In this document: piece after piece, positions 3,868 to 4,847 of the stretch
How positions within the stretch are numbered: the stretch's first letter is position 1
How the letters are laid out: each line of letters starts with the position of its first letter
Source: a virus
Reading direction: 5' to 3' (one strand)
DNA: 37,754 nucleotides
IMG/VR virus record: IMGVR_UViG_3300045049_000023
Span: 1 to 37,754 of that record
Made by a program: the position numbers and the translations under genes
Notes under the pieces: generated by a model
Seen by the model: the letters and a program-made list of their open reading frames with translations, nothing else
Databases searched by the model: none
Told to the model about the DNA's origin: nothing

Positions 3868-4011
3868 ATGCCCACCGTCCTCCACCTATTCCTGAAGCGC
3901 CTGCGATCTGCGGCATTGGAAGATGCGGCGCGGAGGTTCGAGCAAGGCGACGGGAAGCTTTTGAGCCAGTATGAAGTTGCACGGATTTTGAGAGGCTGGA
4001 GGGATGAATGA
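3868..4011 (+). CDS. Small hypothetical protein overlapping methyltransferase start
   Basis: ATG 3868 begins two bases after the cupin stop and gives 47 residues, ending LSQYEVARILRGWRDE. The peptide is helical and basic. Its last codons (GAT GAA TGA, 4006-4011) overlap both start codons of the two genes that follow, at 4004 and 4008, so ending translation here could feed ribosomes into either frame. The sequence GGAGGG at 3998-4003, inside this gene, is the ribosome site for the downstream pair. Function unknown. Confidence 0.6.
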   Translation: MPTVLHLFLKRLRSAALEDAARRFEQGDGKLLSQYEVARILRGWRDE

Positions 4012-4837
4012 GTTGGCTCTTTTCGCAGGCGCTGGTGGAGGAATACTCGGCGGGCACCTCCTTGGCTGGCGAACCGTCTGCGCAGTTGAACGTGATGCCT
4101 ACGCCGCACAAGTTCTGGCGCAACGACAGAACGATGGAATCCTCCGACCTTTCCCAATTTGGTCTGACGTTAAAACTTTTGACGGCGGGCCCTGGAGAGG
4201 AATTGTTGATGTCGTATCTGGCGGCTTTCCGTGTCAGGACATCAGTTGCGCTGGAAAGGGTGCCGGAATCGAAGGCCAGCGAAGCGGACTATGGTCTGAA
4301 ATGCGGCGCATCGTTCGCGAGGTACGACCGGAATACGTCTTCGTGGAGAACTCCCCAGTCCTCACTTCTAGAGGGCTTGGACGTGTTCTCGGAGACCTGG
4401 CCGAGATGGGGTTCGATGCGGAATGGGGCGTCATATCTGCGTCAGACCTCGGTGCCGATCATCAGCGCGAAAGGATCTGGATTTGTGCCCACTCCTACGG
4501 CAACAGACTACAAGAGCGAGTCCATGTCATTGGAGTTGGTTCAGAAGCGCCAAATGTCGAGCAAACGAGGCGTAAGGCTCACGGAATTTCTGCAACGAAA
4601 AATGGTGCCAACTCCTATGGCCGGAAACACGCATTGGGGGGGCAGGCTGGACGAGTTGGGCGGATCGTCAAATCCATTCCGTGGCACCGAGGTTGGGAAA
4701 TTGAAGCTGAACCCACGCTGGACGGAACAGTTGATGGGATGGATAACCGATTGGACCGACTTAAAGCCATTGGAAATGGACAAGTTCCAATCGTGGCTGC
4801 AGCAGCATTCCTTGAACTTGCCAGCCGATTTGAATAA
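4004..4837 (+). CDS. C5 cytosine-specific DNA methyltransferase (Dcm-like)
   Basis: The 277-residue protein carries the ordered C5-methyltransferase motifs: motif I near residues 5-13 (LALFAGAGG, SAM binding), motif IV at 74-80 (GFPCQDI, catalytic Cys77), motif VI at 115-117 (ENS, usually ENV), motif VIII around 154-159 (QRERIW) and motif X near the C-terminus (AIGNGQVP). It methylates cytosine, probably to protect phage DNA from host restriction. It is short for the family, with a small target-recognition region. ATG 4004 directly abuts GGAGGG (3998-4003), a poor spacing, while the alternate-frame ATG 4008 is better placed. Hand count of its first 80 codons gives 39 ending in G or C, lower than recT (27 of its first 40). 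Confidence 0.93.
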   Translation: MNELALFAGAGGGILGGHLLGWRTVCAVERDAYAAQVLAQRQNDGILRPFPIWSDVKTFDGGPWRGIVDVVSGGFPCQDISCAGKGAGIEGQRSGLWSEMRRIVREVRPEYVFVENSPVLTSRGLGRVLGDLAEMGFDAEWGVISASDLGADHQRERIWICAHSYGNRLQERVHVIGVGSEAPNVEQTRRKAHGISATKNGANSYGRKHALGGQAGRVGRIVKSIPWHRGWEIEAEPTLDGTVDGMDNRLDRLKAIGNGQVPIVAAAAFLELASRFE

Positions 4838-4847
4838 CGCCGCATAA
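4008..4847 (+). CDS. Alternate-frame protein overlapping the methyltransferase (279 aa)
   Basis: A second frame, offset by +1 from the methyltransferase, is open for 279 codons, starts four bases after its ATG and ends ten bases after its stop. ATG 4008 has the better spacing to GGAGGG at 3998-4003. The product starts MSWLFSQALVEEYSAG, contains PTPTATDYKS and PTPMAG in the middle, and ends NPRWTEQLMGWITDW, then TDLKPLE and WLQQHS. From memory these N- and C-terminal patterns recur in phage proteins listed as hypothetical, which would mean both frames are maintained. No domain or function is known to me. If not translated, it is an open frame left by the codon use of its partner. Confidence 0.6.
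   Translation: MSWLFSQALVEEYSAGTSLAGEPSAQLNVMPTPHKFWRNDRTMESSDLSQFGLTLKLLTAGPGEELLMSYLAAFRVRTSVALERVPESKASEADYGLKCGASFARYDRNTSSWRTPQSSLLEGLDVFSETWPRWGSMRNGASYLRQTSVPIISAKGSGFVPTPTATDYKSESMSLELVQKRQMSSKRGVRLTEFLQRKMVPTPMAGNTHWGGRLDELGGSSNPFRGTEVGKLKLNPRWTEQLMGWITDWTDLKPLEMDKFQSWLQQHSLNLPADLNNAA

Follow-up and report, generated by a model that had tools for sequence, protein, structure and literature searches.

A single stretch of the window (the whole 37,754-base virus record analyzed here) holds two long open frames on the same strand, which raises the question of whether both are genes and, if so, what the second one encodes. ORF1 (4004-4837, + strand, 277 aa) carries motifs I-VIII and X and is the putative catalytic subunit of a C5 cytosine methyltransferase. 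ORF2 (4008-4847, + strand, 279 aa), in the +1 frame, is the proposed recognition subunit, with a PTP-rich zone and motif IX. These coordinates confirm the original prediction that the two frames are open over nearly the same span. ORF1 matches the Pfam family PF00145 (E = 1e-30), the match stopping at residue 175, as well as phrog_363 (2.6e-65); ORF2 has no match in Pfam and matches phrog_1008, phrog_26627, and phrog_35493. The window is probably a temperate phage, since an integrase, a RecE-like exonuclease, and a portal protein are among its genes.

The two starts share one module (3998-4010, + strand), in which GGAGGG is followed by ATGAATG, with the ATG of ORF1 at 4004 and that of ORF2 at 4008. 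GGAGGG (3998-4003) abuts the ORF1 ATG and is separated from the ORF2 ATG by 4 nt, so that in this window it is indeed better spaced for ORF2, as predicted (0 versus 4 nt); across the family, the median distance from the end of the SD sequence to the ORF1 start is 4 nt. A 47-aa ORF lies upstream (3868-4011, + strand; ATGAATGA), and because its TGA (4009-4011) overlaps both starts, termination-reinitiation from it could supply ORF1 and ORF2.

Relatives were collected via ORF2 (L001-L080), via ORF1 alone (L081-L160) and, from bacterial genomes, again via ORF1 alone (L162-L216); the last set is mostly from Pseudomonadota, with Chloroflexota, Verrucomicrobiota, Planctomycetota, KSB1, and others also represented. 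Nearly all relatives keep the +1 frame, but not the -1 frame, open from one end of the gene to the other. We compared 172 distinct homologous genes, drawn from phages and prophages in several phyla. Leaving out the last 25 codons, the +1 frame is stop-free in 167 of them, whereas 2.3 would be expected after permutation of the synonymous codons of each gene, and it contains 0.06 stops per gene against 4.14 expected. None of the 172 genes has a stop-free -1 frame, which averages 15.5 stops per gene where 12.6 are expected. An independent sample of 79 genes, picked solely for a 32-nt DNA pattern at their start, gave 72 stop-free +1 frames against 0.5 expected. Both samples bear out the predicted conservation of dual coding, which thereby survived a check, set beforehand, for frequent +1 stops in homologues. 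In addition, Asn2 of ORF1 is AAT and Glu3 is GAG in 156 of 156 genes (related genes, not 156 independent events), compared with 41% and 31% elsewhere in those genes. As AAT at codon 2 is required for the ORF2 ATG, the fixation of AAT-GAG preserves the ORF2 start.

Annotation tends to retain one frame, either ORF1 or ORF2, and so hides the overlap. The phage records inspected often annotate only one (the methyltransferase in Salmonella S9-5, ORF2 in Pseudomonas phPA-G), and a few list two overlapping "methyltransferases". In Pseudomonas and Stenotrophomonas phages (L221, L222, and L223) the pair stands under "hypothetical protein" or truncated methyltransferase annotations, the annotated CDS of L221 being ORF2. 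The similar stand-alone phage proteins named in the original prediction seem to be either this same overlapping frame annotated by itself, as in Pseudomonas phage phPA-G, or a split C-terminal half.

Selection on the two frames

We assessed selection with a four-class test, in which each change is synonymous or not in each frame and rates are scaled to the doubly synonymous changes. In 28 disjoint pairs the dN/dS-type ratios were 0.28 (0.22-0.36) for ORF1 (w1) and 0.27 (0.23-0.33) for ORF2 (w2), the doubly synonymous changes behind these whole-gene values being few (88). Both ratios were stable for kappa 1-4 and with loci found by ORF1 only. A second-frame ratio near 1 had been named as a further check on the claim of dual coding, and the claim survived it. 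In 15 neighboring genes of the same loci, used as a control, the real frame gave 0.24 and the +1 frame 1.00 (0.54-1.49). Between close pairs, position 3 of ORF1 codons, which is position 2 of ORF2 codons, changes about as fast as position 1, whereas in the neighboring control genes position 3 is the fastest, changing approximately three times faster than position 1. The locus is a long same-strand overlapping pair, both frames of which stay open in relatives more often than chance allows and evolve under purifying selection there. ORF1 and ORF2 both behave as real genes, and the overlap is retained in hundreds of phages and prophages.

The regional pattern of selection is, in our judgment, the decisive result on what ORF1 and ORF2 are likely to be. 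Codons 1-165 of ORF1 (4004-4498, + strand) hold motifs I, IV (GGFPCQ), VI (ENS), and VIII (QRERIW) and overlap the N-terminal half of ORF2; w1 is 0.10 and w2 0.29 over this part, with w2 at 0.26 over codons 1-55. Over codons 166-230 (4499-4693, + strand), w1 is 1.10 (0.75-1.76) and w2 0.29 (0.19-0.46), on 18.5 doubly synonymous changes. In this region, where the recognition domain is expected, ORF1 evolves neutrally, in keeping with an unstructured read-through linker, and ORF2, whose proposed PTP-rich recognition zone is encoded by the same DNA, is the constrained frame. Over codons 231-262, w1 is 0.20 and w2 0.13. The ORF1 frame is stop-free over codons 166-230 in 152 of 152 genes (21.7 expected), a set preselected for an ORF1 of at least 600 nt, a length that only 10 of 213 loci fall short of; the linker is presumably kept open because ribosomes must get to motif X.

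Conserved methyltransferase residues constrain part of ORF2, and real genes were therefore scored against permuted ones. With three ORF2 segment profiles, real genes outscored all 20 of their synonymous permutations in 59-60 of 60 genes. The profile of the ORF2 core (residues 98-145; 4299-4442, + strand; SFARYDRNTSSWRTPQ...FSETWPRWGSMRNGASY), scored in bits, did so in 60 of 60. Permuted genes retain 56 bits with this core profile, and the conservation of ORF2 over motifs VI-VIII is forced in part by ORF1.

Methyltransferase motifs in ORF1, ORF2, and their relatives

ORF1 contains C5 methyltransferase motifs I, IV (PCQ), VI (ENV/ENS), and VIII (RERIW) together with the catalytic-domain fold; a recognition domain and motif IX are absent from the chain. 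In known enzymes motif IX belongs to the small domain, where the recognition region also lies (PMC3404938). The AF2 model of ORF1 has a pLDDT of at least ~90 for most of residues 1-160, is unstructured over residues ~176-245 (pLDDT 39-56), and is again confident in the helices of motif X (AIGNGQVP...; 4742-4789, + strand; pLDDT 94), where columns A247-P262 are nearly invariant. The model has no small domain. Foldseek matched it to the catalytic domain of M.HaeIII/M.HhaI (E ~1e-14), with alignment only to residues 15-170 of M.HhaI. The end of the Pfam match at residue 175, the unstructured residues 176-245, and the neutral codons 166-230 together indicate that ORF1 is a catalytic subunit, that is, an incomplete enzyme.

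Individual loci depart from this layout. Six (L030, L031, L091, L170, L172, and L185) have an in-frame stop in ORF1 with ORF2 open and full length, and are either recent pseudogenes or cases in which ORF2 is retained without ORF1. The Gallionella copy (L213:4001-4988) shows a frame change after about codon 100 that alters the relation of the two frames; it is possibly a decaying prophage. Two further loci (L236 and L237) carry a long in-frame insertion in motif IV immediately after the proline of the PC motif (PC, then FVAGTSVLTHDG...AAGIVVHN, then CQ), which looks like an intein.

The missing elements can be followed through relatives of ORF2. Its C-terminal part includes the motif IX-like LNPRWTEQLMGWITDWT (residues 234-250; 4707-4757, + strand; family consensus LNPxWVEWLMGWPxGWT), which matches in-frame stretches of two single-chain relatives, L233 and L316. 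In L233 (Propionibacterium phage PFR1), LSARFVEWMMGLPDG lies in the methyltransferase frame immediately 5' of motif X (RALGNGAVPQQA), and the PF00145 match (residues 2-327) takes in the FVEWMMGLPDG stretch, which the ORF2 profile matches with an E value of 1.8e-5. Since it adjoins motif X and falls within the PF00145 match, this stretch occupies the site of motif IX. L316 is one 420-aa chain of motifs I-VIII, three WPTP repeats, LSPDWVECLMNYPLGWTD, and motif X, which the ORF2 profile matches over 112 columns (E = 4e-13). The PTP of PTPTATD in the ORF2 translation (4488-4508, + strand) is kept in A2 and, in frame, in L316. In the split enzymes of mycobacteriophage Artemis2UCLA, L297, L309, L312, and L313, polypeptide 1 ends soon after motif VIII and polypeptide 2, in the +1 frame, carries the PTP zone, IX, and X; the ORF2 profile matches gp89 of Artemis2UCLA (L225) at 3.7e-14, and the split C-terminal halves have no match in Pfam. 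Among 322 loci surveyed with profile HMMs, which replaced a regular-expression motif survey that missed more than half of the loci, 270 have the arrangement of the window, about 26 are split, and about 12 have motif IX in frame; as the loci were gathered by similarity, these counts are not frequencies in nature. The profile matches show that the C-terminal half of ORF2 is homologous to segments that single-chain methyltransferases carry in frame. A role for the PTP zone in recognition would follow from its position, its fusion in relatives, and the selection on it.

The N-terminal half of ORF2 (MSWLFSQALVEEYS...) is long and conserved and is absent from the single-chain relatives. Modeled alone with AF2, ORF2 gave a poor structure (pLDDT 60); Foldseek of this weak model against the PDB found nothing, and the ORF2 profile found nothing significant among PDB sequences. 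A poor model is to be expected of a partner-dependent subunit, but proves nothing. In Streptococcus phage MM1, orf14 (L226:1499-1924) is a +1 ORF inside a complete single-chain methyltransferase and matches the ORF2 core profile at 2e-7. The archaeal Methanomethylovorans plasmid pMETHO01 (L232) also has the same +1 frame, containing LNPVWTEWLMGLPTNWT, on top of a methyltransferase.

A probable single enzyme from two frames, and the alternatives

Both frames are conserved and selected, the catalytic core lies in ORF1, and the small domain is absent from ORF1. We propose, with a probability of roughly 0.8, that a single C5-cytosine DNA methyltransferase is encoded here in two polypeptides that share the same DNA, a catalytic ORF1 and a recognition ORF2. 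ORF1 would provide AdoMet binding, PCQ, ENS, QRERIW, and then motif X, its halves joined by a neutral linker in which selection would act only for an open frame. ORF2 would be translated from a start 4 nt 3' of that of ORF1 at the same ribosome site, so that one message could yield both subunits, and its C-terminal half would contribute what is missing from ORF1, a recognition zone and motif IX, the PTP zone reading the DNA. As the simplest guess, the N-terminal half of ORF2, encoded over motifs I-VIII, probably docks onto ORF1. The assembled pair would then be an active orphan methyltransferase modifying the phage's own DNA; for an orphan phage enzyme, such self-methylation would most likely act against host restriction. 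The original prediction of two full-length proteins from the same bases, conserved in relatives and forming a linked two-product system, is supported; the suggestion that the second is an unrelated partner for control is not, as the evidence points to ORF2 as the part that the methyltransferase itself is missing, recognition zone and motif IX together.

The alternative that survives best, although we consider it improbable, is that ORF2 is a separate protein, such as a regulator, an inhibitor, or an anti-restriction factor, overprinted on a methyltransferase that works without it. Such a protein would account for the conserved N-terminal half of ORF2, with no counterpart in single-chain relatives, and for the conserved cores that remain in the +1 frame of some methyltransferases with an in-frame motif IX (L233, L238-L240, and MM1). 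However, ORF1 is without a recognition domain or motif IX, codons 166-230 of ORF1 evolve neutrally and encode a stretch predicted to be unstructured, and the C-terminal half of ORF2 matches in-frame segments of single-chain methyltransferases. Somewhat less credible is a programmed ribosomal frameshift that fuses motifs I-VIII to the ORF2 frame and leaves the ORF2 start incidental. The recognition zone and motif IX do lie in the +1 frame directly 3' of motif VIII, and in the split relatives motif X is likewise in the +1 frame, but motif X of the window returns to the ORF1 frame, so that a single +1 shift cannot give all motifs, and the ORF2 ATG and N-terminal half are conserved (AAT-GAG in every gene compared; w2 of 0.26 at codons 1-55). 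We rejected this simple fusion, and likewise the very improbable reading of ORF1 as a relic beside an ORF2 that alone still functions: a few loci do have stops in ORF1 and an open ORF2, but w1 is 0.10 across motifs I-VIII, rising to 0.20 close to motif X, and an ORF1 shorter than 600 nt is the exception. That the +1 frame is open merely through codon bias or conserved methyltransferase residues, ORF2 being no gene, is scarcely conceivable and was also rejected, for although part of the ORF2 core signal survives in permuted genes, the +1 frame is almost devoid of the expected stops and its ratio is far below the 1.00 of the control genes.

Within the two-polypeptide reading, a further and distinctly tentative idea is that the full-length overlap is ancient and family-wide, so that the enzyme halves are passed on together and cannot be separated, with the recognition frame free to vary where the catalytic frame is a neutral linker, and that the conserved N-terminal half of ORF2 may do something further, for example bind a host restriction or recombination factor. 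The two-polypeptide reading would explain the many small phage C5 methyltransferases that seem to lack a recognition domain and motif IX, and suggests a corrected annotation for phrog_1008, phrog_26627, phrog_35493, and phrog_27243. Few long, fully coincident same-strand overlaps with demonstrated dual selection are known from DNA phages, and this one offers a clean system in which to study how one DNA stretch serves two proteins, with one part of it neutral in the first frame and constrained in the second alone. It may also provide natural split methyltransferases for targeted-methylation tools.

Comparison with known systems

The nearest precedent is M.EcoHK31I, in which, as in the window, the large subunit has motifs I-VIII and X and motif IX is on a second polypeptide. 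Its beta polypeptide is reportedly coded in an alternative frame within the alpha gene. ORF1 likewise has I-VIII and X without IX, and the profile matches to the in-frame IX stretches of L233 and L316 place motif IX on ORF2. M.AquI (CYCGRG) and M.EcoHK31I (YGGCCR) are C5 methyltransferases of two polypeptides (PMC3404938, citing Lee, Kam and Shaw 1995 for M.EcoHK31I); EcoHK31I alpha contains motifs I-VIII, X, and the predicted recognition domain, and the small polypeptide only IX (PMC3404938). The recognition domain is therefore placed in the large subunit of M.EcoHK31I (PMC3404938) and, on our reading, in ORF2 here (w1 1.10 and w2 0.29 at 166-230), a difference that counts against the proposal for the window. 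Compared by description, M.EcoHK31I also differs in that the window frames coincide end to end and occur in phages, and no restriction endonuclease adjoining ORF1 and ORF2 was identified among the window genes scanned. The window pair would work like M.EcoHK31I but, lacking its recognition-domain feature, is classed as a variant rather than a member.

In M.AquI, as in the window, the C5 methyltransferase is divided behind motif VIII and a second subunit carries the distal part, but the beta subunit of M.AquI holds IX and X (PMC3404938), whereas the window retains X in ORF1. A second subunit of this type, with IX and X, is not that of the window and is present in relatives L215, L297, L309, L312, and L313; Artemis2UCLA gp90/gp89, L297, and L312 show the AquI-like split. 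MM1 orf13/orf14 ("C5 methyltransferase alpha/beta subunit") and Paenibacillus phage Jacopo gp56/gp57 are annotated methyltransferase pairs in different frames of the same DNA. Unlike ORF1, MM1 orf13 is complete as a single chain, with IX and X of its own, and in Jacopo, unlike the window, the second ORF begins well inside the first.

The out-of-frame HNH endonuclease of ShiLan in mycobacteriophage methylases is, like ORF2, a second protein hidden in another frame (PMC11855218). It is an inserted homing element found in a few phages (PMC11855218), whereas the window has no insertion and its second frame spans the whole gene. A ShiLan-type homing insertion was rejected for the window, as 132 ORF2 members gave no HNH match in Pfam and the overlap covers the whole gene in nearly all relatives. 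A literature search for this overlap returned no report, a weak absence given that most subscription papers lie outside its coverage. What is new here is the proposed placement of the recognition zone and motif IX on an overlapping frame, the end-to-end extent of the overlap, and its wide conservation.
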